Origin: Phormidium sp. FACHB-1136
Lineage (GTDB): Bacteria > Cyanobacteriota > Cyanobacteriia > Phormidesmidales > Phormidesmidaceae
Direction of reading: 5' to 3'
Assembly (NCBI RefSeq): GCF_014697375.1
Contig: NZ_JACJRS010000003.1
Span: 1-64,000 of the forward strand
Length of the DNA stretch: 64,000 nt
Shown here in pieces: positions 27,300-46,092 of the stretch (positions are counted from its first letter, which is position 1; each line of letters opens with the position of its first letter). Below the pieces are notes generated by a model, which searched no databases, was not told the DNA's origin, and saw only the letters and a list, made by a program, of their open reading frames with translations. The translations under genes were made by a program, and so were the position numbers.

Positions 27300-27317
27300 G
27301 GGCGAGGAGATCTCGCC
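27300..27317. repeat. dispersed repeat, GGCGAGGAGATCTCGCC type, copy 2
   Basis: A hairpin with arms GGCGAG / CTCGCC between cynA and cynB. Its core matches the copies at 21656, 41971 and 43987. It could also act as an attenuator or RNA stabiliser between these operon genes. Confidence 0.55.
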
Positions 27318-27429
27318 ACTACGGATTAAATTCCTGGACATTAGGAGCATTGACTTCGGACTGGATACCCATCAACGATGATCGCCCATCGACAACAATC
27401 GCTCTGAACAATAATGTGAGATCTTCACC

Positions 27430-28272
27430 ATGGCATTGAGTCAATCAACCCCAGTGGGCCTTGCCCCCACCGTGAAAAAGGATCCCTGGTGGCAAAACGA
27501 AAACCTTAAGGCAGCGGCCCTGTTTGCCCTTTCCCTGGGCATCTTTCTGCTGTTTTGGGAAATTGGTGCGAGGGCAGGCTGGTTTGTGAAGGGCGTGCCC
27601 ACCGCCACCGAAACCATTGGAGAATTTTGGTGGTGGGTAACCAACCCATTTTATAACAATGGCCCCAACGATTTAGGCATCGGCTGGAACCTGTTGATCA
27701 GCCTCCGGCGGGTGGCAATTGGCTACATTTTAGCCTCCCTAGTGGCGGTTCCCGTGGGGATTCTAATTGGCATGTCGCCCGTGGCCTACAAAGCCTTTAA
27801 TCCCTATGTGCAGTTACTGAAGCCCGTCTCGCCTTTGGCCTGGTTACCCCTAGGTCTTTACCTGCTGCGGGATTCCGAAAAAACTGGGATCTTCATCATT
27901 TTTATCTCCAGTATTTGGCCCACGTTGATCAACACCACCTTTGGGGTGGCCAATGTCAATCAGGACTATTTGGATGTCGCCAACACCCTAGGAGCTTCCA
28001 GACTTCGCACGATTTGGAAAGTGATTATTCCCGCTGCATTGCCCAATATTGTGTCGGGTTTGCGGATCAGCATGGGCATTGCTTGGCTGGTGATTGTGGC
28101 GGCGGAAATGCTGCTGGGTACTGGGTTAGGCTATTTCATTTGGAATGAGTGGAACAACCTCTCCATCGCCAATATCCTCGTCGCCATCTTTATTATCGGA
28201 CTCGTCGGCTTGTTATTGGATAGCCTATTTGCCGCTCTGGAAAAATTTGTTGCCTTTGGTCGAAACTCATGA
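27430..28272 (+). CDS. cynB: cyanate-type ABC transporter permease
   Basis: 280 residues with about six membrane helices ([95 protein letters not shown]) and the cytoplasmic EAA-type loop ([24 protein letters not shown]). This is the NrtB/CmpB/CynB/SsuC family of inner-membrane permeases. It lies 216 bases after cynA and overlaps the ATPase gene by four bases (ATGA), so both are coupled. Confidence 0.93.
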
Positions 28273-29153
28273 GAACAGCCCCTGTGAACAGTTATCTCTC
28301 AGCGGATGCGCCCTCAGATACGGCTCAATTATCCATCCGCCAAGTCTCTAAAGTATTTCCCGGTAAGCGGGGCTTAATTAACAAGCTCTCCGGCAAAACC
28401 AGCCGCGATTTTGTCGCCATCCAAGACATTAACTTGGAGATCGAACCCAATACCTTTGTGTCGATTATTGGCCCCTCCGGCTGCGGTAAATCTACCCTGC
28501 TGAACATGATCGCGGGTCTCAGCCCCATCAGCGGCGGCGAAATTTTGCTCAATGGTCATCCCATCACCGGGCCAGGGCCAGACCGGGGTATGGTCTTCCA
28601 AAACTACGCCCTGATGCCCTGGATGACCGTGGAGGAAAACCTACGTTTTGCCGTCGAAACCGTTGACCCCAAAATCTCCGACAAAAAGCGCGACCGCATC
28701 ATCAAGGAATACATTCAACTTGTGGGCCTGGTGGGGGCCGAACGCAAACATCCCCACGAACTTTCCGGCGGAATGCGGCAGCGGGTCGGCATTGCCCGCG
28801 CCCTGGCCATCGACCCGCAAATTCTGCTGATGGATGAACCCTTCGGTGCCCTCGATGCCCTGACGCGCGGCTTCTTGCAGGAGGAGGTCGAGCGGATTTG
28901 GGAGCAGCAGCGCAAAACGGTGATTATGATTACCCACAGCATCGAAGAAGCTCTGTTGCTCTCCGACCGCATTGTGATGATGACCCGTGGCCCCGCCGCC
29001 CGCATTGATGAAATCCTGGAGGTGCCCTTCCCCCGCCCCCGCAACCGCGAAACCATCGAGCAACACCCCGCCTACCACACCCTCAAGGCCGAAATGGAAA
29101 GCCACCTCTACCGCGAAACCCGCGCCGTAGAAGAGGCCCGAATTCAAAGATAG
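28269..29153 (+). CDS. cynD: cyanate-type ABC transporter ATP-binding protein
   Basis: 294 residues: Walker [11 protein letters not shown]-loop [11 protein letters not shown], signature [15 protein letters not shown], Walker [13 protein letters not shown] and H-loop ITHSIEEA. It belongs to the NrtD/CmpD/CynD/SsuB ATPases. The N-terminal extension includes a short basic insertion ([18 protein letters not shown]) between the first strands, common in the nitrate/cyanate subgroup. Co-expressed with cynB through a four-base overlap. Confidence 0.94.
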
Positions 29154-29294: not shown

Positions 29295-29738
29295 ATGACT
29301 ATTTCTGCCATTACCGAAACGCTGTTAGCGGCTAAGAAAGCGGCTGGTTTGAGCTTTGCCGATCTGGAAGCTAAAACGGGTTACGACGAGGTATGGATTG
29401 CCTCGGTTTTCTATCGTCAGGCCAGCACTTCGGTGGAAGAAGCCACCCAACTGATTGAAGCCATCGGAGCCGATGCCTCCCTCATCGACGCCCTGGCTGA
29501 TTTTCCGGTGAAAGGTAGCCTTGACCCGGTAATTCCCACCGACCCCCTGATCTATCGCTTCTACGAAATCATGCAGGTCTACGGAATGCCCATGAAGGCA
29601 GTCATCCACGAAAAATTTGGCGATGGCATCATGAGCGCCATTGATTTCACCCTGGATGTCGAAAAGGTTGAAGACCCCAAGGGAGATCGGGTCAAGGTGG
29701 TGATGTGCGGCAAATTCCTGCCCTACAAGAAGTGGTAA
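29295..29738 (+). CDS. cynS: cyanate hydratase (cyanase)
   Basis: Converts cyanate and bicarbonate to ammonia and two carbon dioxide, giving nitrogen and carbon at once. 147 residues, the typical length. N-terminal helical domain and a C-terminal domain with the catalytic triad Arg88, Glu91 (YRFYEIMQ) and Ser114 (GIMSAIDF); the spacing is the same as in the Escherichia coli enzyme (96, 99, 122). Forms decamers in the cytoplasm. Preceded by an AGAGGTTCTTGTC ribosome site region. Last gene of the cynABDS operon, closed by the terminator at 29820. Confidence 0.97.
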
Positions 29739-29881: not shown

Positions 29882-29895
29882 GTATATCCCATTAC
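29882..29895. promoter_or_regulatory. NtcA-type box GTA-N8-TAC upstream of second binding protein
   Basis: gtatatcccattac is a perfect GTA-N8-TAC. A hexamer TCTAAT (one base from TATAAT) lies 22 bases downstream at 29918-29923, the spacing of NtcA-activated promoters. The next gene starts 242 bases further on. Confidence 0.6.
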
Positions 29896-29901
29896 AAAAA
29901 A

Positions 29902-29925
29902 CTATTAGAATAAACATTCTAATAG
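29902..29925. promoter_or_regulatory. perfect AT-rich palindrome overlapping the presumed -10 box
   Basis: CTATTAGAAT - aaac - ATTCTAATAG: 10-base arms without mismatch. It begins seven bases after the NtcA box and covers the TCTAAT hexamer. Such a dyad suits a TetR-type or other dimeric repressor; a TetR gene lies at 34718-35326. Confidence 0.55.
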
Positions 29926-30137: not shown

Positions 30138-31748
30138 ATGGCTTATCGTTCGGTCTCTCTGGCTAGTCCAGTCCAAAGAACTTATTCCTTGGGTGGAAAT
30201 AGTGTTTTGAGTACGCCCTGTTCAATGTGCGGGCGCGTTCATTCTGCCTCTGATCATGCCAATGTCATGGTGGATATGCCCCAGGATCCGGCAGATCTGA
30301 TCGCAGATTTAACCCAAATGGGATTCTATCGTCCTCAGACTTTGGCGGTGGCAGAGGCCATGAGTCAGGCGGAGGTACGCACGGCCTTGTTTGTAAAAAT
30401 GGCGGGCCAAAATGATCCCAAACGGGAGCGTCTTGTCCTAGATTTAATCAAGTTAGCGGGGGGATTAGATCAGGCTTTTTCTGCTACCTTTGGGCCAAAA
30501 GCAGGCGAGTTTTTTGCCGACGCTCAAATTAAAAGCCAGTTTACTCGGCGCAAGTTTTTACAGAACGTGGCGGTGGGTGCAGCCCTAGTCACCCTAGCCA
30601 ACTGTGCCCAACAACCGGATCAGGAGGCCACCGAAGAATCCACCTCTAGCGGCACCAGGGAACTAGAAAAAACCGATCTCAGCATTGCCTTTTTGCCGAT
30701 TACCTGCGCCACGCCAATCATTATGTCTAAGCCCCTGGGCTTCTATGAGCGCCAGGGACTCAATGTAACGCTGATGAAATATGCGAGTTGGGCACTGGTG
30801 CGAGATGCTGCCATTGCCGGGGAACTGGATGCCTATCACATGCTAGCGCCCATGCCAATTTCGATCTCCCTTGGGTTAGGATCAACCGCCTTTCCGCTTA
30901 AGTTAGCCAGCATTGAAAATAACAACGGCCAGGGAATCGTTGTCGCGAAAAAGCACCTAGGTAAGGTGAATGGCCCTGCTGATTTTGCAGGCATGAGTAT
31001 TGCCATTCCCTTTGATTATTCCAATCATAACTTGCTGATTCGCTACTATCTGGCTTCGGGTGGACTCGATCCCGATAAAGATGTGCGGTTGTTAGTTACG
31101 CCGCCCCCAGATGCCATTGCACAAATGTCGGCAGGCCAAATTGATGCCTTTATTCTGCCAGATAATTTTGGCCAGCGAGCTGTTTTTGAGGATATCGGCT
31201 TTATCCACATGTTGACCAAAGATCTGTGGCCCGGTCATCCCTGCTGTGCTTTTGCCGCCTCTCAGAATTGGATTGATCAACATCCGAATACTTTCCGTGC
31301 GGTCAATAAGGCCATTATTGACGGAGCTAATTACGCTAACGATCCAGCCAATCGGGCGGAAGTTGCCGCCGCCATTGCTCCCCGCGAATACCTCAACCAA
31401 CCCGTTGAAGTGCTGGAAGCGGTGATGACGGGCAACTTTGACGATGGCCAAGGTAACAGTTTGGAAGTGCCGGATCGGATTTACTTTGATCCCTACCCCT
31501 GGAAGAGTTTTTCTGGTTGGATCTCCACCCAACTAGTGCGGTGGGGCTATATGCCTACGGATCAGGCCAACTACGATGAAATCGCTGAACAAGTGTTTCT
31601 CACGGACTTAGCGCGAGAACTATCGGAGGAATTAGGTGTGGATGCCCCCCAGGAATTAACCCGCGTTGAAAACCTAAAAACGGCTCCCTTCGATCCCGCC
31701 GATCCTGAAGGCTACCTCAAGGCTCAGGTGGATAAGTTTGGTCGTTAG
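30138..31748 (+). CDS. second cyanate-type substrate-binding protein with N-terminal extension
   Basis: 536 residues; the ATG has a good ribosome site (gaggga). Very similar to the cynA product throughout: N-terminal Cys28, Cys31, His35, His40 (CX2CX3HX4H), the helical block MPQDPADLIADLTQMGFY, internal twin-arginine lipoprotein-type signal TRRKFLQNVAVGAALVTLANC (Arg137-Arg138, Cys156) and a binding-protein domain (ITCATPIIMSKPLGFYE, ELDAYHMLAPMPI, GHPCCAFAAS). It has no permease or ATPase of its own, so it probably feeds CynB/CynD with a related ligand or under another condition. The start of this gene confirms that the long extension is real and not a misplaced start. Confidence 0.88.
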   Translation: MAYRSVSLASPVQRTYSLGGNSVLSTPCSMCGRVHSASDHANVMVDMPQDPADLIADLTQMGFYRPQTLAVAEAMSQAEVRTALFVKMAGQNDPKRERLVLDLIKLAGGLDQAFSATFGPKAGEFFADAQIKSQFTRRKFLQNVAVGAALVTLANCAQQPDQEATEESTSSGTRELEKTDLSIAFLPITCATPIIMSKPLGFYERQGLNVTLMKYASWALVRDAAIAGELDAYHMLAPMPISISLGLGSTAFPLKLASIENNNGQGIVVAKKHLGKVNGPADFAGMSIAIPFDYSNHNLLIRYYLASGGLDPDKDVRLLVTPPPDAIAQMSAGQIDAFILPDNFGQRAVFEDIGFIHMLTKDLWPGHPCCAFAASQNWIDQHPNTFRAVNKAIIDGANYANDPANRAEVAAAIAPREYLNQPVEVLEAVMTGNFDDGQGNSLEVPDRIYFDPYPWKSFSGWISTQLVRWGYMPTDQANYDEIAEQVFLTDLARELSEELGVDAPQELTRVENLKTAPFDPADPEGYLKAQVDKFGR

Positions 31749-31850
31749 GAAATCCTAGACAAGAAAATCCCCGTAGATTGGGTATAGCAAGGCGGAACCT
31801 AACCGTACCCTAAACTTGGGTTCCGCAATTTATCTATTGGAGGTATGGTG

Positions 31851-32369
31851 ATGTCCGACAGTCGATATCGCTTTGAGTTGGCACGTTCTACCCAAGAGGT
31901 CACCAGCTATTATCAGCTTAGAAAGGCTATTTTCTGTGAAGAGCAAGGGCTTTTTGCGGGGAATGATGAGGATGATTTGGACTCCGTTTCCTATCCCATT
32001 ATTGCCATTGATACCGAGGTTCCGGCGAGTCAAAATGTGGTCGGCGTTGTGCGTATTTACGAAAATCAACCTCGTCTTTGGTATGGTGGACGCCTAGGGG
32101 TTCATCCCGATTATCGACGGGTGGGGCGTATTGGCAAAGGGTTGATTCACAAAGCGGTGACTACCGCCAACGGCTGGGGCTGCGACCGATTTTTGGCCAC
32201 GGTGCAGCTTCAAAATGTTCGGTTCTTTCAGCGGTTGCATTGGGCTAGCATTGATGAAATTCAGGTGCGCGATCATCCCCATCACCTGATGGAAGCTGAC
32301 CTGGAATTCTATCCCCCTAGTGACGAAAGGCGTCCTGCCCTGGCAATGTCTGCGCGTCAGGTGTCCTAA
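31851..32369 (+). CDS. GNAT acetyltransferase, MSMEG_0567/Sll0786 family
   Basis: 172 residues. The ribosome site GGAGGT (31839-31844) touches the ATG at 31845, so the ATG at 31851, six bases further, is the better start. The acetyl-CoA loop is visible around RLGVHPDYRRVGRIGKGLI, after the family opening YYQLRKAIFCEEQGLF; the C-terminal ATVQLQNVRFFQRLHW is also typical. It belongs to the set of proteins that travel with Nit1C clusters (nitrilase, radical SAM, AIR-synthase-like, glycosyltransferase), linked to cyanide or nitrile assimilation. Reaction unknown. The AIR-synthase-like gene follows by 13 bases. Confidence 0.85.
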   Translation: MSDSRYRFELARSTQEVTSYYQLRKAIFCEEQGLFAGNDEDDLDSVSYPIIAIDTEVPASQNVVGVVRIYENQPRLWYGGRLGVHPDYRRVGRIGKGLIHKAVTTANGWGCDRFLATVQLQNVRFFQRLHWASIDEIQVRDHPHHLMEADLEFYPPSDERRPALAMSARQVS

Positions 32370-32382
32370 CGAAACTTCGCCC

Positions 32383-33372
32383 ATGTTAACCGAGTTGATC
32401 GCCCAAATTCTTCCAGCCCTGGGGCTGGCACAAAAGCAGGATATTCAGATCGCTGCCCGTCATTTAGGGCAATTTGTGCCGCACAATCAAACCAGCGAAC
32501 CCATTGCTTTGGGGGACGACTGTGCCGCCATTCCCGATGGCGAGGGCTATCTGCTGCTGGCGGCGGAGGGGCTGTGGCCGCCCCTGGTGGAAGCTGACCC
32601 GTGGTTTGCGGGCTGGTCGGCGGTGCTGGTGAATGTGAGCGACATTTACGCTATGGGGGGCCGTCCCTTGGCGGTGGTGGATGCTCTGTGGAGTCCGACT
32701 ACGGATCATGCGGATGCGATTTGGCAAGGTATGCTGGCCGCCTCTCAGGCCTTTAATGTCCCGATTGTGGGGGGGCATACCAATTGCCACAGCCCCTACA
32801 ATGCGCTGTCTGTGGCGATTTTGGGACGGGCCAACCAGCTCATTTCCAGTTTCGCGGCCCAGCCCAGTCAGATGCTCGTGCTGGCCACTCAGCTCAACGG
32901 GCAACTCCATCCTCAGTATCCCTTTTGGGATGGAGCCACCCAGGCTGACCCAGCAGAGTTGCAGCGTCAATTGGCGGTGCTGCCCGCCATCGCCGACCAA
33001 GGACTCTGTTCGGCAGGTAAAGATGTCAGTATGGGCGGCATTTTGGGCACCACGCTGATGCTGCTGGAAACCTCCGGCTGTGGAGCGGTGGTGGATGTGG
33101 CGGCAATTCCTTGTCCTGACTCGGTGCCTTTGGAAACCTGGCTGCGGTGCTTCCCCAGCTACGGCTTTTTATTGACGGTTGAACCCCAGGATTTCGCCCC
33201 CGTTCAACAACAATTCCAGGCAGTGGGCATCACCTGTGTGGCTATGGGAAAAATTGTGGCGGCCCCCCAGTTGACGCTCACCTACGGCGACGAAACCGCT
33301 GTTTTCTGGGACTTCTCCACCCAGCCCCTCACCGGATTCTCTCCCTCAAATGCTGCCATCACCGAGCCTTAA
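32383..33372 (+). CDS. AIR synthase-related protein, Sll0787 family
   Basis: 329 residues from ATG 32383. The PurM/ThiL-type N-terminal domain has ALGDDCAAIPDGEGYLLLAAEG and the metal/ATP strand VNVSDIYAMGGRPLAVVDAL; the C-terminal domain has GHTNCHSPYNALSVAILG and CSAGKDVSMGGILGTTLMLLE. Related enzymes use ATP to phosphorylate or cyclise small substrates. In Nit1C clusters this protein is constant, but its reaction is not known to me. It directly follows the GNAT gene and precedes the glycosyltransferase remnant, as in other genomes. Confidence 0.88.
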   Translation: MLTELIAQILPALGLAQKQDIQIAARHLGQFVPHNQTSEPIALGDDCAAIPDGEGYLLLAAEGLWPPLVEADPWFAGWSAVLVNVSDIYAMGGRPLAVVDALWSPTTDHADAIWQGMLAASQAFNVPIVGGHTNCHSPYNALSVAILGRANQLISSFAAQPSQMLVLATQLNGQLHPQYPFWDGATQADPAELQRQLAVLPAIADQGLCSAGKDVSMGGILGTTLMLLETSGCGAVVDVAAIPCPDSVPLETWLRCFPSYGFLLTVEPQDFAPVQQQFQAVGITCVAMGKIVAAPQLTLTYGDETAVFWDFSTQPLTGFSPSNAAITEP

Positions 33373-34717: not shown

Positions 34718-35326
34718 TTAGAAAGGCTCGACGGTTTGGAGGGCAAGGGTGATGAGATGACGGGCCACGTCAAACCCCTGGCGCAGGCGGTCGGTGTCTT
34801 GGTAGAGTTTGCCCATCAGCATGGCCCCCTCTAGGACGGTCATAATTTGGCTCGCCAGAATTTGCGGATCAACCCTCGGTTTGAGGTGTCCCTGATCCTG
34901 CGCCTGGGTTAAGCGTTCGGCAATGGCCCCTTCCCACTGGCTAAAAATCTGGGCGAGGTGTTCCCGAAAGCTGGGATCTTGTTCAGCTAAATCAACAATT
35001 AAATTGCCCAGCAAACATCCACCACAGAAGGGTTCTTTATGCTGTTTTTTCTCTAGAACATCTATAATCCAAAGTAGTTGATCAATAGGGGAATCACTCT
35101 GTTGGTGTGAAGGCTCAAGAATGTTAGTTTTCAACTTTTCCCACTCAAAATCAATGAGGGCATGGCCAAGCTCTTGTTTGGAGGAAAAGTAGTTATAAAA
35201 ACTGCCCGACGATGCCCCACTGAGGTCAAACAGTTTACTCAATCCCGTAGCTGTTAACCCATTGCGATGAACGGTGTTGATCACCGATTCTAGAATATCT
35301 TCCCGTGTACGCTTGAGGTTTACCAT
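34718..35326 (-). CDS. TetR/AcrR family repressor
   Basis: 202 residues. N-terminal helix-turn-helix with GLTATGLSKLFDLSGASSGSFYNYFSSKQELGHALI, as in TetR proteins; the ligand domain includes FCGGCLLGNLIVDLAEQD, a block found in the LmrA/YxaF/AcuR-like branch. The two close cysteines could sense a reactive compound, which is a guess. No gene for its own efflux pump or enzyme is obviously paired. The genes around it belong to the Nit1C set, and the palindrome at 29902 is a possible operator. Confidence 0.9.
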   Translation of the reverse strand: MVNLKRTREDILESVINTVHRNGLTATGLSKLFDLSGASSGSFYNYFSSKQELGHALIDFEWEKLKTNILEPSHQQSDSPIDQLLWIIDVLEKKQHKEPFCGGCLLGNLIVDLAEQDPSFREHLAQIFSQWEGAIAERLTQAQDQGHLKPRVDPQILASQIMTVLEGAMLMGKLYQDTDRLRQGFDVARHLITLALQTVEPF

Positions 35327-35526: not shown

Positions 35527-36615
35527 CTAGGAACGCTCGAAGGTGGATAGGGCGGAACAAGCTCCACATTTGGCGCAGCCCGCGCTGATGGTGTCCGAGG
35601 TCATCCCGGCAGCTTGGAGCATGTCGCCTACCCGTTGATAGAGGGCAAACATGAAGTCGGCGCTGGGGGCGGGGTGGTGGGCCAAGGGCGTTTCGGAGAT
35701 GGGCACAAAGGGCACCACAAAGGGGTAGACCCCCAGGCGAATCAGGCGTTCGCTGGTGTTCACCAGAGTTTCCAGGCTGTCTCCCAAACCCGCCAGTAGG
35801 TAGGTGCTGACCTGGCCCCAGCCAAAGACCTTCACAGCGGCCTCAAAGGCTTCAAAGTAGTAGGATACGGGCACCTCGGCCTTACCGGGCATGATCCGCG
35901 CCCGCACGGATTCCTCCACCGCCTCTAGGTGCATTCCCAGGCTGTCGATACCTGCGTCCTTCATGCGTTGGAACCAGGCAAAATCGTCGGGGGGTTCGCA
36001 CTGGGCCTGGATGGGCAGGGGCACACGGGCTTTGATGGCACGGGCGCATTCGCTCAAATAAGCGGCTCCGCGATCCCTGGAATTGGGCGTTCCGGTGGTC
36101 ATAATCATGTGCGTCGCCCCGTCCAATCGCACGGCGGCTTCGGCCACTTCCGCCAGTTGGTCGGGGGTTTTGCGGGCAATGGTGCGGTCTCCCGCCAGGG
36201 ATTTTTCGATGGCACAAAACTGGCAGGCGGTGGTTTCATCCCGGTAGCGCATACAGGTTTGCTGGACGGTGGTGGCCAGCACATCATGGCTGTGGAGCAG
36301 GGCAATTTTCCAGTAGGGGATGCCATCGGCGGTGGAAAGGCCGTAGAACTGGGGCACTTTGGGAAAGGAAATCGACCCAATGGGCTGATGATCGTAGGTC
36401 AAATTTTCTTGATCTGGCCCGCAGGTTTCCACCGCATAGGGCGACTGGTGAGCCGTATCCGTGTAGATCGGCACCATGATCGTGCGGCCATCAATGGTTA
36501 CGGCCCGGTGATCCGATGGCCCTGCGCCGCCTTTACGTCCGGCCACACCGGGAGTTTGGTCGGGCAATTTTAGGCCACGGGTTTGAAGTTCCGTCATTAA
36601 CCGTTGGGGTTCCAT
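35527..36615 (-). CDS. radical SAM protein, MSMEG_0568/Sll0785 family
   Basis: 362 residues from ATG 36615. The cysteines around residues 121-134 (CMRYRDETTACQFC) are spaced CX9CX2C rather than the common CX3CX2C, and a second cluster GCAKCGACS closes the protein. Other family blocks are HMIMTTGTPNSRDRG, PIQAQCEPPDD, GIDSLGMHLEAV and the C-terminal FVVPFVPISETPLAHHP. It accompanies the nitrilase in Nit1C clusters; its reaction is unknown. The nitrilase gene lies upstream on the same strand with 155 bases and a repeat in between, so the two form a reverse-strand unit driven from the region near 37812-38207. Confidence 0.88.
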   Translation of the reverse strand: MEPQRLMTELQTRGLKLPDQTPGVAGRKGGAGPSDHRAVTIDGRTIMVPIYTDTAHQSPYAVETCGPDQENLTYDHQPIGSISFPKVPQFYGLSTADGIPYWKIALLHSHDVLATTVQQTCMRYRDETTACQFCAIEKSLAGDRTIARKTPDQLAEVAEAAVRLDGATHMIMTTGTPNSRDRGAAYLSECARAIKARVPLPIQAQCEPPDDFAWFQRMKDAGIDSLGMHLEAVEESVRARIMPGKAEVPVSYYFEAFEAAVKVFGWGQVSTYLLAGLGDSLETLVNTSERLIRLGVYPFVVPFVPISETPLAHHPAPSADFMFALYQRVGDMLQAAGMTSDTISAGCAKCGACSALSTFERS

Positions 36616-36681
36616 GGGGATCACAAAAAATGAATAAAACGATTCTGAAATAGCTGACGTAATACAAAAAATGAATCTTTC

Positions 36682-36765
36682 GTAGGTTGGGTGGCGCGAT
36701 AGTAGAACCCAACAAGCCCAATGTGTCAGTGAGTGTTGGGTTTCGCTTCGCTGCACCCAACCTAC
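36682..36765. repeat. inverted-repeat element GTAGGTTGGGT...ACCCAACCTAC
   Basis: Perfect 11-base outer arms, with inner arms CCCAACA / TGTTGGG. Sits between the nitrilase and radical SAM genes. The GTAGGTTGGGT...TTTCGCTTCGCTGCACCCAACC pattern is a common cyanobacterial dispersed repeat. Confidence 0.8.
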
Positions 36766-36770
36766 ATTGG

Positions 36771-37811
36771 TTAAGACTCAGGAGAAATAGATTCCGGCAG
36801 CGGGAACGGCACTATGGATGCAGGGACTTCTGAAGAATTATGTTCGGAAGAATTGGTCACAACAAAATCTAGCGATTGGGCCATGGGCTGCATAACTGAC
36901 CAGGCTTTTTGATTCACCTGAAGCTGAAGCAAATCGGGGCGGGCATAGTGGCCAACGGAGTCCATCATGCGCTTGCGTACCCAAATGTCACGCAGGTCTA
37001 AATCGGCAATTACTAAGCCTTCTCCTTCGGTTAAGGGGGTGCCCATGATTTCGCCTTTGGGGTTAATAATGGCCGTAAAACAGCCGCCACTTAGGGCTTT
37101 GTGGTAAGCCTCATCGGCGGTGATTTGCTGCTTTTGTTCCGGTGTTAGCCAGCCCGTGGCATTCACTACAAAACAACCCGACTCTAGGGCATGGTGGCGA
37201 ATGGTGACTTCCATTTGGTCGGCAAAAATTTGGCCCACCATTGACCCCGGAAACTGGCTACAGTGGATTTGCTCCTGCTGGGCCATCAGACTATAGCGGG
37301 CCAGGGGATTGTAATGCTCCCAGCAGGCCAAAGCACCGACTCGTCCCACGACGGTATCCACGGTGCGCAACCCGGCCCCATCGCCATTGCCCCACACCAT
37401 GCGTTCGTGATAGGTCGGGGTGATTTTGCGCCGCTTTAGCAACAGGGTGCCATCGGCATCAAAAATTAATTGGGTGTTGTAAATCGAGCCACCCTCCCGT
37501 TCGTTTACCCCTAGCACCACCACCATATTGTAGGAACGCGCTGCCCGACTGACCGCGTCCACCACTGGCCCTGGTACCGTTACCGCTTCTTCGTAGAGTT
37601 TGAGGTGAGCGGCACCCATTTTCATTGGCGGTTCAATGAAGGAAAAATAGGGGTAATAGGGAATAAAGGTTTCTGGAAAAACAATCAGTTGAACGCCCTC
37701 TTTCGCCGCCAAAGCAATGGCATCCAGAACCTTCTCCGTCGTCCCTTCTCGGCTGAATAATACGGGGCTAATTTGCGCGGCAGCGGCCCGAACCGTTTGG
37801 GAATAATCCAT
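36771..37811 (-). CDS. nitrilase, Sll0784 (Nit1) family
   Basis: 346 residues. Catalytic triad Glu47 ([12 protein letters not shown]), Lys129 ([14 protein letters not shown]) and Cys163 ([11 protein letters not shown]), as in aliphatic and aromatic nitrilases, which turn a nitrile into an acid and ammonia. This branch is the constant member of Nit1C clusters, linked to growth on cyanide or nitriles as nitrogen source; in Synechocystis the neighbouring genes sll0783-sll0787 respond to nitrogen starvation. The last 25 residues are a Ser/Pro tail. It is divergent to the OsmC gene at 38208, and the shared 396-base region holds an NtcA box. The Sll0783-like member is not in this window. Confidence 0.93.
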
Positions 37812-38132
37812 AGCTTATCAATACCTGTGAACAGCAATGCCCTAGGGAAATAGGCAAGTTGGCAAAATATTTGGAACCATCACCACAGCTCGACACGCTT
37901 CCCATTGAGCGAGCCGTGGGTTGCCAATTCAGAACCTTAATGCAGGGCTTAATGCAGGGCTAGTCGTCATCTATGACCAGTATCCAACGGCTAACCCGAC
38001 TCAGCGATAAACAAACACGCCTGACCCCAAAAATATCTGCCCCATGAACAGCCCACCAGGCCAAAACCGTGACGTTCCCATACTCAGTAACGTCTTGATA
38101 TAGGACATTACCCCTCCGATACCGTTGAATTC
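37812..38132. other. divergent intergenic region, left part
   Basis: No gene. A direct repeat cttaatgcaggg occurs twice near 37937-37963, and an inverted repeat GACGTT / AACGTC spans about 38070-38093. The promoter of the nitrilase must be here, but its position is not obvious. Confidence 0.4.
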
Positions 38133-38174
38133 GTATCTAGGAATACAGTTTATCGGAGATGGGTTGCCTAAATT
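38133..38174 (+). promoter_or_regulatory. NtcA-activated promoter before the OsmC gene
   Basis: GTA (38133-38135), eight bases, TAC (38144-38146), exactly 22 bases, then TAAATT (38169-38174), which fits GTA-N8-TAC-N22-TAN3T. The expected start of transcription is near 38181 and the ATG is at 38208. NtcA is the global nitrogen regulator of cyanobacteria. Confidence 0.8.
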
Positions 38175-38207
38175 TGATTTAGATAGACTTTTCTATTTGG
38201 TAGAGCT

Positions 38208-38729
38208 ATGTCAGACGTAACAACGACCCTCGCGCCCATTTCCGTAGACGGTTTGAAGGAACTGGGGGAAAAAAATCGGGCCAACCCCGCCGACAAGACC
38301 CTGAAGGTGAAAACCGTTTGCGAAGGCAAGTTCCGCAGCCTAAACTATGCCCGCGACCTAGACGCCTTTGTGGTTGACGAACCCCCCGGTCTGCTGGGCG
38401 ACAACACCGCCCCCAACCCCTCGGAAATTGTGTTAGGAGCCTTTGGATCTTGCTTGGCGGTGGGTCTTCAGGCCAACGCAGCGGCGCGGGGCATCACCCT
38501 CACCAAGCTGGAAATTTCCCTGGAAGGCGACATCAACATCACCAGCACCTGGGGCACCGGGGAACTGGCCAAACCCCAAATTGGCTTCACCGATGTGCGC
38601 GTTAAGGTAGACATCGACGGCGATGCTTCCAAGGAAGTGCTGGCGGAAATGGTGGCCCATGCTAACGAGTGGTCGCCCGTTTCGGCCACCCTGCGCAACC
38701 CCATGCCCGTTTCCGTGGAAATGGCCTAG
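38208..38729 (+). CDS. OsmC-family peroxiredoxin-like protein
   Basis: 173 residues. The OsmC/Ohr fold is seen in SLNYARDLDAFVVDEPPGLLGDN, then the helix PSEIVLGAFGSCLAVGLQANAAARG with Cys82 and an earlier Cys38. Classical members reduce organic hydroperoxides with two cysteines; here the two are present but their pairing is unproven, and several OsmC-like proteins are carried by catabolic operons with unrelated roles. First gene behind the NtcA-type promoter, so nitrogen limitation should switch it on together with the flavoprotein that follows after 240 bases. Confidence 0.85.
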   Translation: MSDVTTTLAPISVDGLKELGEKNRANPADKTLKVKTVCEGKFRSLNYARDLDAFVVDEPPGLLGDNTAPNPSEIVLGAFGSCLAVGLQANAAARGITLTKLEISLEGDINITSTWGTGELAKPQIGFTDVRVKVDIDGDASKEVLAEMVAHANEWSPVSATLRNPMPVSVEMA

Positions 38730-38969: not shown

Positions 38970-40127
38970 ATGCAAACACTCCAAACCGCACCTTTGAAAA
39001 ACACCTTACTGACCCACGAATCAGCCGTTGCTGCTGTTCGATTAGTGGTTCAGGAAGCTCTAACCCCTAAGGTGCAAGATATTGATCTCAAGGGCGAATA
39101 TCCGGCGGATATTTTGACTCAGTTGGGAGAAGCCGGAGCCTTTGCCCATGCCGTATCTCCTGACTTTGGTGGCACGGGGCTAGGGCTGCGGGCCACCATT
39201 CAAGCTATTGAAGAAGTGTCCAAGGTCTGTGTCTCTACGGGATTTATGACCTGGTGCCAGGTGGCCTGTACCTGGTATTTGCAAAAAACCCACAATACGG
39301 CCCTCGCCTCAACCCTGCTGCCAGATATTGTCACTGGACAGAAACTAGCCGGGACGGGGCTGTCTAACCCGATGAAGCACTTTGCTGACATCGAGAAAAT
39401 TGCCCTGACGGCTGTGCCTGTGGAGGGTGGTTTTGAAATTAGCGGGATGCTGCCCTGGGTCTCTAACCTGGGGCCGGGGCACGAGTTTGGTGTGGCTGCC
39501 AAAATTGCCGACAGCGATGAGTATCTCATGGCAGTGGTGTCCGATGCCCTGGAGGGGCTGACCCTGCGTTGCAACGCCCACTTTATCGCCCTGGAAGGAA
39601 CCGGAACCTATAGCTGTGTGTTCCGCCAGGTGTTTGTGCCCCACGACCGCGTACTGGCCGCCCCCTGCGAAACCTATGTGCGCTGCATTCGTCCTGGGTT
39701 CATCCTCACCCAGGTGGGCATGGGTCTGGGGCTAGTGGATAACTGCATTGAGCTAATCCGCCGTTCCAACCAGCGTCTCGGCCATGTGAATCAATTTTTG
39801 GACGACCAAGCCGACGACCTGGCCCTGGATTTGCAGATGGCCCGTGAGCGTACCTACGCCCTAGCGGATCGCCTCGATGCCTGCACGGGGGCGGTGGAAG
39901 ACATCGCCCTCATCCGTGAAGTGATTCAGGCCCGGATTGCGGGATCAGAACTCTCTCTGCGGACGGCTCAGTCGGCGATGCTCCACGCCGGAGCCCGTGC
40001 CTATGTCCACGGCAGCGCCCCAGAACGCAAACTGCGGGAAGCCTACTTTGTGGCCATCGTTACCCCCGCCCTGAAACAGCTCAAAAAGATGCTCCACGCC
40101 CTACCCGAACCCGCCCTGGTAGCCTAG
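38970..40127 (+). CDS. acyl-CoA dehydrogenase-fold flavoprotein, possible monooxygenase
   Basis: 385 residues in the acyl-CoA dehydrogenase superfamily: N-terminal helices ([32 protein letters not shown]), middle beta domain ([34 protein letters not shown]) and C-terminal helical domain ([55 protein letters not shown]). Many proteins of this fold, such as DszC and SfnC, are FMN-dependent monooxygenases that need a separate flavin reductase, and such a reductase is encoded at 42031. The absence of any other fatty-acid gene supports that reading. A true dehydrogenase remains possible. Confidence 0.8.
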
Positions 40128-40155
40128 TTGGTTGGTAGCCTTGTTGTCCGGCCAG

Positions 40156-40214
40156 CAACATCTCATCCTAAATCCGGCTTACTTACCCCCAGTATCCGGG
40201 GGCCAGGTCTCCTT
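40156..40214. repeat. dispersed repeat, AAATCCGGCTT type, copy 3
   Basis: Reads aacatctcatcctaaatccg, then gcttacttacccccagtatc and cgggggccaggtctcc. It shares the left part and the AGGTCTCC core with the copy at 21656. Confidence 0.5.
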
Positions 40215-40230
40215 ATCCAATACTGTCCCT

Positions 40231-40698
40231 ATGTCTACGCCCCTTGTGCCCCCCTTCACCCATGACATCGCCATCGCCAAAGTCCGCATGGCAGAAGATG
40301 CCTGGAACAGCCGCGACCCCGACCGGGTGGCCCTGGCCTATACGGAAGATAGCCACTGGCGTAATCGGGCCGAAATTTTCCAAGGACGGGAAGCCATCCG
40401 GGCCTTCCTGCGCCGCAAGTGGGATAGGGAACTGGACTATCGCCTAGTGAAGGAACTGTGGGCCTTTGGCGAAAACCGCATTGCCGTGCGCTTTCAGTAC
40501 GAATGGCACGATGATGCGGGGCAGTGGTACCGGGCCTACGGCAACGAAAACTGGGAATTTGCCGAGAATGGTCTAATGCGTCGCCGCGAAGCCAGCATTA
40601 ACGACCGCCCCATTGCCGCCGAAGACCGTCGTTTCTTTTGGGATGCTTCTGGCCCCCGGCCCCAGGATCACCCAGGGTTGATGAACTCGCCGGAATAA
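40231..40698 (+). CDS. DUF1348/SnoaL-like protein
   Basis: 155 residues from ATG 40231; the in-frame upstream part (from 40132) overlaps a repeat and is discarded. NTF2/SnoaL-like cone fold: [45 protein letters not shown], then [14 protein letters not shown]-like strands and a C-terminal tail [16 protein letters not shown]. The family is uncharacterised; related folds are cyclases, isomerases or dehydratases. It lies between the flavoprotein and the transporter genes, in keeping with a side step of the same breakdown route. Confidence 0.88.
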
Positions 40699-40824: not shown

Positions 40825-41937
40825 GTGAATCATCGGTCGTTACAGCGAGTTTCCCGTCGCTCTGTGTTGGGTGCGGGTTTGTTTTTGGGGGCCAGTTGGG
40901 CGCTGAAGGGCTGCGATGCCTCGGCTCCCCAGGGGGGCACCACCGTGACCGCAGAAAGCGATGTGGCGGGTGAGTTGATCGTGGCCTCCTTCCCTGGCAC
41001 CACGGACAGCCTGTTTCGGGAAGCGTTGGCCCCGGTGGTGGCGGATCAAACTGGGGTGGCCGTCAGCGCCCAACCCCTGCTGGCCTTTGAGCAAATTGCA
41101 CGGGTGAAGGCTTCCCCAGAGAACCCGCCCTTTGACGTGCTGATTTTAGACGATGGGCAGAATGCTGTGGCCATCGCGGAAGACCTGCTCCAGCCCTTCC
41201 CCATGGATAAAAGCCCCAACAGCAGCGATGTGAACCCGGGCTTCCTTAGCGATCAGGGGCTCGCACCGATCTTCTATGCCCAGGGCATTGTGCTGGCCTA
41301 CAACACCGAGCGGGTGCAAACGCCGCCCACCTCCTGGGAAGTCATGCTTGACCCCAATCTGAATGCTCAACTGGGGCTGGTCAGCCTCAACAGCATCTTG
41401 GGTACCTCCTTCATGGTGGAGTTGGCGAAGACCCTGGGGGGCGATGAATCTAACATTGAACCTGCCTTTGAGGCGGTGGCGGAAATGCTGCCCCGTGTGA
41501 ATGGTGTGGCGGCGAACCCTGGGGCATTGCTCACCCTCTTCCAGCAGGGCGAGATTGACGTGTCTCCCATGTGGCACAACGACGCGCTGACCCTGGCGGA
41601 ACGGGGTGTCCCGGTGGGGATTGCATCCCTGGAAACGGGCATTGCCGCCGCCCGCTACAGCCTCAACATTGTGAAAAATCCCTCCGCTGGGTTGGATCGG
41701 GCTGTGGCCTACGTCGATGCCATGCTGAGCGTAGCGGCCCAGGCGCAGGTGGTCGGTGCGCCCTACTTCTATATCCCATCCAACAACACCGTAGACTTCC
41801 CGCCCCAGTTGGCTGCGTCCATGGGGATCGAGTCGGTGGATGACTTCATCGCCATGGCCCACAACCTCGATTGGCCCACCATCAACCCCCAGCGGGCCGA
41901 CTGGATCGAACGGTTCAACCAAACGGTGCAGTCCTAG
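40825..41937 (+). CDS. spermidine/putrescine-type ABC substrate-binding protein, Tat lipoprotein
   Basis: 370 residues from GTG 40825, with a gaggta ribosome site. N-terminal twin-arginine lipoprotein signal SRRSVLGAGLFLGASWALKGC. The mature protein has the PotD/Fe3+-type binding fold: GELIVASFPGTTDSLFREAL, FDVLILDDGQ, FYAQGIVLAYNTERV, PTSWEVMLDPNL, GEIDVSPMWHNDALTLAERG and YSLNIVKNPSA. These systems bind polyamines, thiamine, iron or phosphonate-like ligands; the ligand here is unknown. It is the first transporter gene behind an NtcA-type box and is followed by the flavin reductase, so it probably takes up the substrate of the flavoprotein system. Confidence 0.88.
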   Translation: MNHRSLQRVSRRSVLGAGLFLGASWALKGCDASAPQGGTTVTAESDVAGELIVASFPGTTDSLFREALAPVVADQTGVAVSAQPLLAFEQIARVKASPENPPFDVLILDDGQNAVAIAEDLLQPFPMDKSPNSSDVNPGFLSDQGLAPIFYAQGIVLAYNTERVQTPPTSWEVMLDPNLNAQLGLVSLNSILGTSFMVELAKTLGGDESNIEPAFEAVAEMLPRVNGVAANPGALLTLFQQGEIDVSPMWHNDALTLAERGVPVGIASLETGIAAARYSLNIVKNPSAGLDRAVAYVDAMLSVAAQAQVVGAPYFYIPSNNTVDFPPQLAASMGIESVDDFIAMAHNLDWPTINPQRADWIERFNQTVQS

Positions 41938-41970
41938 GTTAACGTCTAGCCTCCCAATGGATGGATTACA

Positions 41971-41995
41971 CCGTAGGGGCGAGGTCTCCTCGCCC
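41971..41995. repeat. dispersed repeat, GTAGGGGCGAGGTCTCCTCGCCC type, copy 4
   Basis: ccgtaggggcgaggtctcct followed by cgccc, a hairpin with arms GGGCGAGG / CCTCGCCC. Almost the same sequence is at 43987-44012. Confidence 0.8.
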
Positions 41996-42030
41996 TTCTT
42001 CCACATTGAGTCCACAGTGCCCGACCAACC

Positions 42031-42678
42031 ATGCCCGACCTCGATCCCCCGGAGATGATCACCCTGGCCACGGCGGAGATGGCGGTGCCCGCCCCCTATC
42101 ATTTGTTGACCAGCGTGGTGGCCCCGCGCCCCATTGCCTGGGTGTCTACGATCAGCGCCGAGGGCCAGCCTAACCTCGCCCCCTATTCCTTTTTTAATGC
42201 GGTGTCGGGCTTTCCGCCCACACTGATGTTTTCGGTGGCCCTGCGCCGTCGCGAACCCCAGGAAAAGGACACCCTACGCAATGTGCGGGAGGTGGGGGAG
42301 TTTGTCTGCCATGTGGTGGATGAAGCCCTGGCTGAGGCGATGGTGACAACGGCGATGGAACTGCCCCACGGCACCAATGAATTTGAGGTGGCCGGATTAA
42401 AGGCGATTCCGGCCATGGACGTGAAGCCCTTCAGGATTGAGGGTGCCCCGGTGGCGATGGAATGTCGGGTGACGCAGATTGTGCCCGTGGCGGAGGCCAC
42501 CAGCGTCATGGTGCTGGGACAAGTTTTGCGCTTCCATATTCGCAAAGATTTATACAGAAGTCCGTTAGGTCTGGTGGATACAGTACACATGCAGCCCGTC
42601 ACCCGCCTGGGTGGCCCGGTGGAATACACCAAGATTGGCGAACTCATTCATCTTTCCATTCCTACGAACCCAGAGTAG
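42031..42678 (+). CDS. flavin reductase family protein
   Basis: 215 residues. FMN-binding split-barrel fold of the DIM6/NTAB flavin reductases: HLLTSVVAPRPIAWVSTISAEGQPNLAPYSFFNAVSGFPPTLMFSV, then FVCHVVDEALAEAM and a C-terminal CRVTQIVPV strand. These enzymes use NAD(P)H to reduce FMN and hand it to a partner monooxygenase. The gene is enclosed in an ABC transporter operon, which is unusual for a housekeeping reductase and fits a partner role for the flavoprotein at 38970. Confidence 0.9.
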   Translation: MPDLDPPEMITLATAEMAVPAPYHLLTSVVAPRPIAWVSTISAEGQPNLAPYSFFNAVSGFPPTLMFSVALRRREPQEKDTLRNVREVGEFVCHVVDEALAEAMVTTAMELPHGTNEFEVAGLKAIPAMDVKPFRIEGAPVAMECRVTQIVPVAEATSVMVLGQVLRFHIRKDLYRSPLGLVDTVHMQPVTRLGGPVEYTKIGELIHLSIPTNPE

Positions 42679-42740
42679 GGGGCCGTTGCTCCTGCGGCTA
42701 TCGCGTCCGTTCCCGACTATCCATAGCAGAGACAGAACCC

Positions 42741-43880
42741 ATGCAGTCTGTACAAACCACCCCATCGCCCGCCCACCTCGCGGCCACAGCTACCCTAGCC
42801 GATGCGACGGGGCATAGCCTCACCCTGTCCCAGGTCATGCACCAGTTTGGGTCTTTTATGGCGCTGAGGGACATCAACCTGGAGATTCAGCCGGGGGAAT
42901 TTGTGTCGCTGCTGGGGCCAAGCGGCTGCGGCAAAACCACCCTGCTGCGGATTATTTCTGGCTTCCTCGACCCCACGGCGGGCAATGTGCTGATCGATGG
43001 CAAGTCCGTTAAGGGGCTTTCCCCTAGCGAACGGGGCACGGGCATTGTGTTCCAAAACTACGCTCTCTTCCCCCACATGACCGTGTGGGACAACGTCGCC
43101 TACGGGCTGCGGGCGGGGCGGAAAATGTCCCGAGGCCAAGTCGCCAACCGAGTGGGGGACATGCTGGATATGGTGCAGCTCAGCCATTTGGCCAAGCGGG
43201 TACCCAGTGAGCTGTCGGGGGGGCAACAGCAACGGGTGGCCATTGCCCGCGCCCTGGCGGTGGAACCTCGGATTATGCTGCTAGACGAACCCCTCAGCGC
43301 CCTCGACAAAGGGTTGCGCCTGGATATGCAGATTGAAATTCGCCGCATCCTCAGCGCTCGCGGCATTACGGCCATCATGGTCACCCACGACCAGGAGGAG
43401 GCCATGAGCATGTCTGACCGCATTGCCGTCCTCTCTGGGGGCGAAATTCACCAGTTCGACAGCCCCAGCAACCTCTATGACCGTCCCGCCACTCAGTTTG
43501 TCAGCTCCTTTGTGGGCACCTGTAACCACTTGCCTGGGGAAGTGCTGGGTCGGGTGGATAAGGGCTATTTGGTCAAGGTGCCCGGTGGCGAACTAGAGGT
43601 CGCCTCTGACCATGCCCTCACGCCCCAAGGCCAGATCACCGTCGCCATCCGTCCCGAAAACCTGCGGGTACAAAGCCAGTCCCACCGCCACACCCTAGCG
43701 GGCACCGTGGCCATGTGCCTCCCCCTCGGCGCGATGATGACCTACGATGTCGCCCTGGGTTCCGACCTCCACATCAAACTCACCCAGCCCCGCACCCTCG
43801 GCACCCAGCCCCTCGTCCCCGGCGATCAGATTCACCTCGATCTGGTCTCCTCCGACGCCTGTTCCGTCTTCCCCGCCTAG
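42741..43880 (+). CDS. spermidine/putrescine-type ABC transporter ATP-binding protein
   Basis: 379 residues from ATG 42741; an in-frame extension to 42462 overlaps the flavin reductase gene and is rejected. Walker A GPSGCGKTT, Q-loop FQNYALFPHMT, signature LSGGQQQRVAIARAL, Walker B IMLLDEPLSALD, H-loop VTHDQEEA, then a C-terminal TOBE-type domain (VAIRPENLRVQ). PotA-like. The N-terminal 30 residues are a poorly conserved tail. Partner of the permeases at 44267 and 45223. Confidence 0.93.
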   Translation: MQSVQTTPSPAHLAATATLADATGHSLTLSQVMHQFGSFMALRDINLEIQPGEFVSLLGPSGCGKTTLLRIISGFLDPTAGNVLIDGKSVKGLSPSERGTGIVFQNYALFPHMTVWDNVAYGLRAGRKMSRGQVANRVGDMLDMVQLSHLAKRVPSELSGGQQQRVAIARALAVEPRIMLLDEPLSALDKGLRLDMQIEIRRILSARGITAIMVTHDQEEAMSMSDRIAVLSGGEIHQFDSPSNLYDRPATQFVSSFVGTCNHLPGEVLGRVDKGYLVKVPGGELEVASDHALTPQGQITVAIRPENLRVQSQSHRHTLAGTVAMCLPLGAMMTYDVALGSDLHIKLTQPRTLGTQPLVPGDQIHLDLVSSDACSVFPA

Positions 43881-44266
43881 GTCGGTCAATGGAGCGACTC
43901 GGTACACATCAGTCCCAAGCGTGGTCTTTGGGCTCAGGAATGGTGCCTAACCCGATCTAGCACACCCTGATTCCCCAACCAACCAACCGTAGGGGTGAGG
44001 TCTCCTCGCCCATTGGATACCGGGGCATACAGGTCAGATTTGGCACAAGTGTTTGTTGGTTGTTGCTGGAGTTTGATTTCGTGGCGAGATCTAGATCCTT
44101 TCAATTTAGCCGTCGTATTTAGAAAGCCCTCTTCAAAAACCCAGTTTATGGCGCAAACCGACCGTTTTGCGGTGATCACTAAGATTAAACAATCGGGTTT
44201 CTAGCCTAGTCTGCGAAAGTGAGTTTTCAGGATTGTCCGAATGTCCACCCCCACCAGCCATAACCC
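43881..44266. other. intergenic with dispersed repeat copy 5
   Basis: No gene in 386 bases. The repeat ccgtaggggtgaggtctcct plus cgccca lies at 43987-44012. The region from 44040 to 44230 is AT-rich with no reading frame of coding look; a separate promoter for the permeases is possible, but no GTA-N8-TAC box is seen. Confidence 0.55.
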
Positions 44267-45115
44267 ATGAACATCACTCAACTGCTGCGGCCTAAACAGG
44301 ACTTTTTGGCCCTGCCCCTGGCCATTTTTTTGCAGCTTTTCTACATTGTGCCCCTGGTGATTTTGATTGCCTCTAGTTTTCAGGCGGGGGCCGATGGCGG
44401 TATTTCCTTAGATAACTACCTGAAATTCTTTGGCAATGCGGTCAACGTCAAAGCCCTCACCGATACCTTTTGGCTCGGCATTCAAGTCACCATTGCCTGC
44501 CTGATCATTGGCTACCCCGTCGCCTATTTCTATGTGAATGCCCATGCCCGCTGGAAGGGCGTACTCACCTTTTTGATTATGCTGCCCCTGCTCACCAGTG
44601 CCGTGGTGCGTACCTTTGGCTGGGTAGTGATTTTGGGACGGCAGGGGTTAATCAATACGGCTCTCATGAAGCTAGGGCTGATTGAGGAACCCATCCGCCT
44701 GCTGTTCACCCACAACGGGGTGCTGATTGCCCTGACCCAAATTTGGCTACCGATGATGGTGCTGCCCATCGTGGCCTCCCTATCGCAAATTGACTCGCGT
44801 CTGGCGGCGGCCTCTAAAAGCCTGGGCGGTGGGGCATGGCGCACCTTTTGGCAAATCACCTTTCCCCTCACCCTGCCGGGAATGATTTCCGGGGCGCTGC
44901 TGGTGTTTGCTCTCACGGTTAGCTCCTTCGTCACGCCCTCCATCATCGGCGGGGGCCAGCTCATCTATCTGCCGACATTGATTTACCAACAGGGCATTGT
45001 GCTGCTGAACCAGCCCTTCGCCGCCGCCGTGTCCACCCTGCTGCTGATCATGGTGGTAGCTGTAGTGCTGCTCCTAGGAGCCTTTGGCAAGCGCAGCCGC
45101 CGCTATATCCGTTAA
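44267..45115 (+). CDS. spermidine/putrescine-type ABC permease 1
   Basis: 282 residues, PotB-like. Six membrane helices (ALPLAIFLQLFYIVPLVILIASSF, TFWLGIQVTIACLIIGYPVAYFYV, VLTFLIMLPLLTSAVVRTFGWVVIL, MMVLPIVASLS, MISGALLVFALTVSSFVTPSII, TLLLIMVVAVVLLLG) and the EAA loop RLAAASKSLGGGAWRTFWQITFPLTLPG. Works with the permease at 45223, the ATPase at 42741 and the binding protein at 40825. Confidence 0.92.
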   Translation: MNITQLLRPKQDFLALPLAIFLQLFYIVPLVILIASSFQAGADGGISLDNYLKFFGNAVNVKALTDTFWLGIQVTIACLIIGYPVAYFYVNAHARWKGVLTFLIMLPLLTSAVVRTFGWVVILGRQGLINTALMKLGLIEEPIRLLFTHNGVLIALTQIWLPMMVLPIVASLSQIDSRLAAASKSLGGGAWRTFWQITFPLTLPGMISGALLVFALTVSSFVTPSIIGGGQLIYLPTLIYQQGIVLLNQPFAAAVSTLLLIMVVAVVLLLGAFGKRSRRYIR

Positions 45116-45222
45116 CGCAGACCTGTATTGGGCGTAGCGACAGCGGAACCCAGCACCCCGGACTCCGCGCCATGTGATGTCCTCAGCTAGATCACCAAAC
45201 CTCAGACTCCCTAGAAACCGCC

Positions 45223-46092
45223 ATGTCCTCAACTCCCCTCAACCCGCCCACCCAACTGCCCTCAGAGTCGGCCTATTCCCTCCGCAAGCTGGATCAGATG
45301 TCCTTTGCGATGGTGATGCCCATCCTCGCCATCCTGGGCCTGATCATGCTCACAGCCCCCACCATTATTGTGCTGTTGGCCTCCTTCAGTTCCTCGGCCA
45401 CCCTACAATTTCCGCCCCCCGGATTTTCCTTGCAGTGGTATCTGTCGCTGTTTAATTTCCCAGAACTTCGTGCCGCCGCCCTGAATAGCTTCCAGGTGGC
45501 CCTATTCACCGCCATTGTCTGCGTGGTGCTGGGGGTGGCCGCTTGCTTAGCGATGATCAATAGCCGGGGCCGCTGGGTCGCCGTTATGGATGCCCTAGTG
45601 ATGTCGCCCCTGGCCCTGCCCGGTGTGGCCCTAGGTTTGGGGATGATGGCCTTTTTTGCCATGGTGGGGGTACGCCTGTCCCTGTTCACCCTGATCATTG
45701 GCCACATCGTGATTTGTACTCCCTACGTGGTACGGAACGTGCTGGCGAGTTTGACCCAGCTTGGCTCCTCCCTCCAGGAAGCCTCCAGCGCCCTAGGGGC
45801 CAGCCCCACCTACACCTTCTTTAACGTGACATTGCCCTTGATCAAGCCGGGGGTGCTGATTGGAGCGTTCATGGCCTTCCTCACCTCCTTTGATAACGTG
45901 GCCGTGACCCTATTTTTGTCCGATGCCCGCACCGAAATGCTACCCATCCGCATGTGGTCGATGATCGAAAACGACCTGGATGTCCGTGCCGCCGCCATCT
46001 CCGGGGTGCTGATTTTCCTCACCGCCCTGCTAATGATTGCCATGGAACGGTTCTCTGGCCTCTCTAAAGCACTCATCAACGGCAAAGCCTAA
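45223..46092 (+). CDS. spermidine/putrescine-type ABC permease 2
   Basis: 289 residues, PotC-like. Membrane helices PILAILGLIMLTAPTIIVLLASF, FTAIVCVVLGVAACLAMI, LALPGVALGLGMMAFFAMVG and the rest in order; EAA loop SLQEASSALGASPTYTFFNVTLPLIKPG. It lies 108 bases behind the first permease and ends the ABC operon. The N-terminal cytoplasmic stretch of about 25 residues is longer than in PotC. Confidence 0.92.
   Translation: MSSTPLNPPTQLPSESAYSLRKLDQMSFAMVMPILAILGLIMLTAPTIIVLLASFSSSATLQFPPPGFSLQWYLSLFNFPELRAAALNSFQVALFTAIVCVVLGVAACLAMINSRGRWVAVMDALVMSPLALPGVALGLGMMAFFAMVGVRLSLFTLIIGHIVICTPYVVRNVLASLTQLGSSLQEASSALGASPTYTFFNVTLPLIKPGVLIGAFMAFLTSFDNVAVTLFLSDARTEMLPIRMWSMIENDLDVRAAAISGVLIFLTALLMIAMERFSGLSKALINGKA

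Follow-up and report, generated by a model that had tools for sequence, protein, structure and literature searches.

Three described systems come closest to the locus considered here. In the class II promoters of NtcA, the dyad is centered at about -41.5 and the -10 box has the form TAN3T, and, within one group of ChIP targets, the core GTN10AC is highly conserved (available text of PMC3898017). The qdoR promoter contains one operator, which is located downstream of the -10 site (available text of PMC8481877). Finally, the sll0783 operon of Synechocystis has been discussed in the context of nitrogen starvation and is presumed to use unusual nitriles (available text of PMC3901256).

The window, that is, the whole stretch of 64,000 nucleotides of the filamentous cyanobacterium Phormidium sp. 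FACHB-1136 that was analyzed, contains a locus that can be compared with each of these systems. Judging from the pattern of bases, their retention in relatives and the gene setting, we consider it likely that the segment 38133-38174 holds the activator site and -10 box of an NtcA class II promoter, with osmC and probably also the adjacent flavoprotein gene under its control, and that a second, TetR-type input acts at a palindrome. The sequence-only reading that preceded this analysis recognized the NtcA-type promoter, and that part of it stands, but it overlooked both the palindrome over the predicted start and the gene-island setting.

The gene island

Between 25.5 and 46 kb, the window carries a nitrogen-scavenging island (Table 1), whose cyanase, CynS, is the single match found in the whole genome. 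Relatives of the OsmC protein were collected by fetching 71 loci. The 38 cyanobacterial ones and the window together form a set of 39 loci; neighborhoods were counted over 67 loci plus the window (68 in total, with L094-L097 omitted as distant); four loci of the window's genus, L101-L104, with OsmC proteins 61-62% identical, lie outside the 39-locus set and are treated separately; and L128 and L129 were left unused in the counts. Of the 68 loci, 20 encode CynS within the flank fetched around OsmC, 9 of them cyanobacterial and 11 proteobacterial (Thiomicrorhabdus, Hydrogenovibrio and similar), and 5 encode the nitrilase there. The arrangement is uniform in the 11 proteobacterial loci (L068-L070, L073, L077, L081-L083, L085, L088, L089), with cynS on the opposite strand, upstream of the OsmC and flavoprotein genes, and a relative of rubredoxin/pyridine-nucleotide oxidoreductase in 11/11.

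Table 1. Features of the nitrogen-scavenging island, in order of position in the window
Feature	Position	Strand	Basis or remark
Cyanate/nitrate-type ABC transporter: binding protein (NMT1-type), permease (NrtB-like), ATPase (NrtC/D-like)	25528-29153	+	TIGR01183, TIGR01184 over cut-off (permease, ATPase)
Cyanase CynS	29295-29738	+	TIGR00673, 212 bits (cut-off 113.3)
Second GTAN8TAC (29882-29895), N22, TCTAAT	29882-29923	+	before second binding-protein gene
Second NMT1-type binding protein, sll0786-family N-acetyltransferase, sll0787-family AIR-synthase-like protein	30138-33372	+	TIGR04045, TIGR04049 over cut-off
TetR-family regulator, TetR_C_13 and LmrA/YxaF-like C-terminal domains	34718-35326	-	candidate palindrome ligand
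MSMEG_0568 family radical SAM protein	35527-36756	-	TIGR04043, 601.2 bits (cut-off 303.7)
Nit6803 (sll0784) family nitrilase	36771-37811	-	divergent from OsmC; TIGR04048, 564.2 bits (cut-off 502.6)
NtcA-type dyad GTA-N8-TAC, GTATCTAGGAATAC	38133-38146	+	pattern match and conservation
-10 box TAAATT (fits TAN3T)	38169-38174	+	22 bases (38147-38168) after dyad
Predicted transcription start	38181	+	inferred from -10 box and class II rule (available text of PMC3898017)
Palindrome ATAGA-CTTT-TCTAT, proposed TetR-family operator	38183-38196		conserved before OsmC
OsmC-family protein, single-conserved-cysteine subfamily	38208-38729	+	PF02566, 73.6 bits (cut-off 27.5)
Acyl-CoA-dehydrogenase-like flavoprotein, conserved OsmC neighbor	38970-40127	+	match in 67/68 loci
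DUF1348 / NTF2-like protein	40132-40698	+	PF07080, 218.5 bits
Second ABC transporter set and flavin reductase	40825-46092	+	profile matches
Second set: binding protein	40825-41937	+	
Second set: flavin reductase	42031-42678	+	
Second set: ATPase	within 42462-43880	+	true start probably near 42800
Second set: permease	44267-45115	+	
Second set: permease	45223-46092	+	

One relative (locus L131 of genome G007) shares the GTAN8TAC/N22 arrangement of the second binding-protein gene, there some 540 nt ahead of its own gene. In the window, a perfect 10-base inverted repeat, CTATTAGAAT-AAAC-ATTCTAATAG (29902-29925), overlaps the -10 region of the promoter of the second binding-protein gene; the repeat is not perfect in L131, so a second operator is not claimed here. 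Before the cyanate-type binding-protein gene, at 25228-25277, there is a GTN10AC with TAGAAT 24 bases on, and a GGAATA-N4-TATTCC inverted repeat overlaps this site. In loci of the genus (L132-L150, L156-L158), the stretch that precedes the binding-protein match by about 1.3-1.5 kb contains GTAN8TAC in 15/22 and GTATCACCCTATAC in 5, and AAGGTTTACTA follows the GTAN8TAC in all 5 stretches listed. Another GTAN8TAC, at 40716 and ahead of the second set's binding-protein gene, was rejected, having no TAN3T box at N20-24. A short frame at 33497-33886 matches only the C-terminal part of an MSMEG_0565 family glycosyltransferase and is apparently a truncated remnant.

The probable promoter and the palindrome over its predicted start

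On re-reading, GTA-N8-TAC, the spacer of exactly 22 bases and TAAATT were all found where the sequence-only reading had placed them, and its 34 bases between TAAATT and the OsmC ATG had to be corrected to 33 (38175-38207). With transcription starting at the predicted position, the center of the dyad would fall at -41.5.

The palindrome lies at the predicted start site, downstream of the -10 box and ahead of the ATG, and can alternatively be read as TAGA-N8-TCTA (38180 to 38195). It precedes OsmC in 39/39 cyanobacterial loci, 26 times exactly, 6 times with one mismatch and 7 times respaced to N8; the respaced form is that of the 7 Adonisia/Leptothoe-type loci, the arms being exact in 4 of these and substituted in 3. 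Both arms are changed together in L036 and L037, and L101-L104 retain the palindrome, two exactly and two with one mismatch. Elsewhere in the window's genome, exact ATAGA-N4-TCTAT occurs in one place only (L126 position 547, G000:C250). Among the non-cyanobacterial loci, an exact palindrome is present within 300 nt before OsmC in 1/29, and the other 28 show at least 2 mismatches. The single case is Thiomicrorhabdus chilensis (L070), yet a window-type TetR homolog was absent from all three proteobacterial genomes searched at E up to 1e-20, this one included (L066, L070, L076). A structured 5' leader RNA in place of an operator was rejected: the folding z is 0.17, and 108/200 shuffles fold at least as well.

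The ligand of the palindrome is probably the TetR-family protein of the island. A homolog is encoded in the fetched flank of 23/39 cyanobacterial loci, directly before OsmC in L029, L031 and L038, and a whole-genome search of 15 of the 16 remaining (all but L028) detected it in 14/15 at E up to 1e-20, the genome of L059 being the miss. In the Pseudanabaena-type genomes where both genes are visible, TetR adjoins cynS (9/9), and all nine belong to the 14 whole-genome hits; in five of the 14 (L160-L163, L173), the flank fetched, up to 1.5 kb, contained no gene for OsmC, CynS or the flavoprotein. The N-terminal DNA-binding region is highly conserved and includes GSFYNYF or a near form. Solved relatives of the window protein are 3qbm and YxaF (1sgm, 38.3 bits). 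The LmrA/YxaF box, with a TAGA-N4-TCTA core, resembles the palindrome. A usable operator consensus is not given in the available parts of PMC8481877 or PMC8728441.

Conservation of the dyad and the rival readings

A GTAN8TAC followed after 20-24 bases by TAN3T precedes OsmC in 9/38 cyanobacterial relatives: in three (L027, L028, L092) the spacing is N22 and the dyad lies at -75, as in the window, and in six (L048, L053, L054, L055, L056, L058) the spacing is N20. L027 and L092 both belong to the genome of Nodosilinea sp. P-1105, and L028 is a MAG of the window's genus. The second Nodosilinea copy, L092, has only partial nitrilase, radical SAM and OsmC matches and still keeps the dyad, the -10 box and the palindrome. 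Across the window and the three N22 copies, 9/9 specified bases are invariant against 15/33 of the other element positions (Fisher p 0.003), and 4/40 positions of the upstream flank are invariant; in the same-genus copies of the -10 box, TA...T is constant and the middle three bases are AAT, CGC, ACC and ATC. With respect to the palindrome, the strict GTAN8TAC was found within the preceding 200 nt in 12/39 loci (6/17 hand-made groups), always 44-50 nt away, and the relaxed GTN10AC at this distance in 20/39 loci (10/17 groups), with 9 hits elsewhere; in 2000 shuffles of the upstream sequences the maximum was 2 loci (strict) and 5 loci (relaxed), the 44-50 nt band having been set post hoc and same-genus loci, including four Pseudanabaena-type groups, not being independent. 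Further GTAN8TAC within 450 nt before OsmC occur beyond the 200-nt stretch in L042 and L091 and overlapping the palindrome in L061, and L038 and L045 have the dyad and no TAN3T box at N18-26. The strict dyad is absent before the palindrome in 27/39 cyanobacterial loci, among them 7/7 of the Adonisia/Leptothoe group and 6/6 of the Phormidium/Elainella type, and L101-L104 have neither a strict dyad in these 200 nt nor a relaxed one at 44-50 nt (4/4). Given this patchiness and the wider occurrence of the palindrome, NtcA-type control would be a lineage-specific layer on a more conserved operator.

Could the TetR-family operator alone control the promoter, the dyad being bound by some other CRP-family factor or persisting as a weak leftover, and nitrogen being irrelevant? 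This is the order in which the two elements rank by conservation, with the palindrome in 39/39 loci and the strict dyad in 12/39 and in 0/4 of L101-L104, and the genome contains four further CRP-family matches, all under the NtcA cut-off. We nevertheless regard such a scheme as unlikely. The bases and the spacing that are kept are precisely those of the NtcA consensus, and the neighbors of osmC are nitrogen genes. The genome encodes NtcA itself (385.5 bits, cut-off 244.95), with a helix-turn-helix identical to that of the solved NtcA, and the same N22 architecture is present before urtA, the urea-transporter binding protein gene, and glnA, the glutamine synthetase gene, both recognized by HMM on truncated proteins at 365 and 284 bits, which is under the whole-protein cut-offs. 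Other N22 matches in the genome precede a nitrate/taurine-type ABC ATPase, a binding protein and an amidohydrolase. Taken together with the nitrogen-scavenging neighbors, these observations favor the NtcA promoter architecture before the OsmC gene that the sequence-only reading had proposed.

Another possibility is that the dyad serves the divergent operon of the nitrilase and the radical SAM protein, or else both directions, given that GTAN8TAC-N22-TAN3T can be read on the minus strand as well, at 38105-38146, facing the nitrilase, and that sll0783 of Synechocystis and its neighbors, including the nitrile hydrolase sll0784, have been discussed as nitrogen-starvation genes (available text of PMC3901256). 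However, the minus-strand -10 box is not kept in L027, L028 and L092 (read by eye), the leader would be about 290 nt long, and for 8/11 relatives with the strict dyad the fetched flank contains no nitrilase. The lack of conservation in its -10 box led us to set the minus-strand match aside as a nitrilase promoter, and a divergent role appears quite improbable to us.

As to the chance expectation of the element, the bare dyad is expected about once per 16 kb, a rate some three-fold below the once per 5 kb that had been assumed; the window contains 6 GTAN8TAC against 4.1 expected, and at least 6 were found in 17/100 shuffles. Together with TAN3T at N20-24, the dyad at 38133-38146 is the only one in the window, once per direction. 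Simulated windows contain 0.2 such matches on average. In the whole genome (5.98 Mb, 260 contigs), GTAN8TAC-N22-TAN3T gives 21 matches, including 2 at the dyad itself, and the reversed-pattern control 17, so that the 42-base pattern shows no genome-wide enrichment. Of the 21 loci, which served only as calibration, 5 lie inside reading frames of at least 150 codons. Pattern matching alone, therefore, cannot decide, and it is through conservation in relatives that the element stands out beyond chance. A functionless chance match, with which the near-control genome count and the 19/100 simulated windows containing such a match are compatible, is very improbable considering that the specified bases are conserved in diverged copies and that the position is fixed across lineages.

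Predicted dual control and the OsmC-flavoprotein pair

The preferred reading, in which an NtcA class II promoter is subject to a second, TetR-type input, suggests the following course of events, modeled on the known NtcA mechanism. Under nitrogen shortage, NtcA loaded with 2-oxoglutarate would bind the dyad at about -41.5 and recruit RNA polymerase to TAAATT. The TetR-family protein most likely occupies the palindrome and would block transcription until an inducer appears, plausibly one of the compounds that the island handles (cyanate, nitriles or reactive products formed from them). osmC would then be expressed only when nitrogen is short and the substrate is present.

OsmC/Ohr thiol peroxidases carry two catalytic cysteines. 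The relatives of the window protein share one invariant cysteine (C82, 67/67), and no second catalytic cysteine was found in them at its presumed position, which is taken by an invariant Trp-Ser-Pro (66/66), with Tyr-Ser-Pro in 2opl. In view of the single cysteine and the Trp-Ser-Pro, a classical peroxidase role for this protein is doubtful. The usual catalytic-glutamate motif of acyl-CoA dehydrogenases, YEGT, is located near the C-terminus. The flavoprotein, which has an invariant cysteine of its own (C87, 65/65), seems to be devoid of this C-terminal motif.

The combination of a nitrogen-shortage switch, a second switch and neighbors that scavenge cyanate and nitriles indicates that osmC is probably part of the cell's feeding on unusual nitrogen compounds. 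We would go further only tentatively: the OsmC protein and the flavoprotein might jointly perform an undescribed nitrogen-scavenging step, for example, supplying the cyanase with cyanate or removing a reactive nitrile or cyanide product, that is common to cyanobacteria and to sulfur-oxidizing and other Proteobacteria and that, in cyanobacteria, is gated by an undescribed repressor of the TetR family, whose operator is widely conserved, and in several lineages by NtcA too.

If the preferred reading is correct, the promoter represents the usual NtcA switch acting on a new target. The NtcA mechanism as such is already known; osmC as a target and the dual control are apparently undescribed. OsmC, NtcA and cyanobacteria were not found together in the literature searched, a scope that most subscription journals fall outside, and no such dual-control system is among the titles and abstract beginnings in the partial listings of related literature searches. 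Regulation and neighborhood now tie a conserved pair of genes with no known role to cyanate and nitrile use, and a candidate is available for the repressor and a precise one for the operator, so that the substrate of the OsmC-flavoprotein pair becomes testable.

Comparison with known systems

The locus resembles the canonical NtcA class II promoters of urtA, nirA, ntcB and glnA in the GTAN8TAC, the 22 bases, the TAN3T box, the expected center at -41.5 and the nitrogen-scavenging context (available text of PMC3898017). It differs from them in that the target is a pair of osmC and acyl-CoA-dehydrogenase-like genes and that a palindrome covers the predicted start.

As with QdoR/LmrA (YxaF) of Bacillus subtilis, the locus has a putative TetR-family repressor, and this protein is related to YxaF. 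The placement of the palindrome is the same as that of the qdoR operator, downstream of the -10 site (available text of PMC8481877). However, the regulator of the window is only distantly related to QdoR/LmrA, and the operator here is combined with an activator site.

Finally, compared with the sll0783-sll0786 genes of Synechocystis (available text of PMC3901256), the island contains members of the sll0784, MSMEG_0568, sll0786 and sll0787 families, the last of these taken from family names, whereas here they are arranged as two divergent sets and joined to genes for the cyanase, the transporter, the TetR-family regulator and the OsmC protein.
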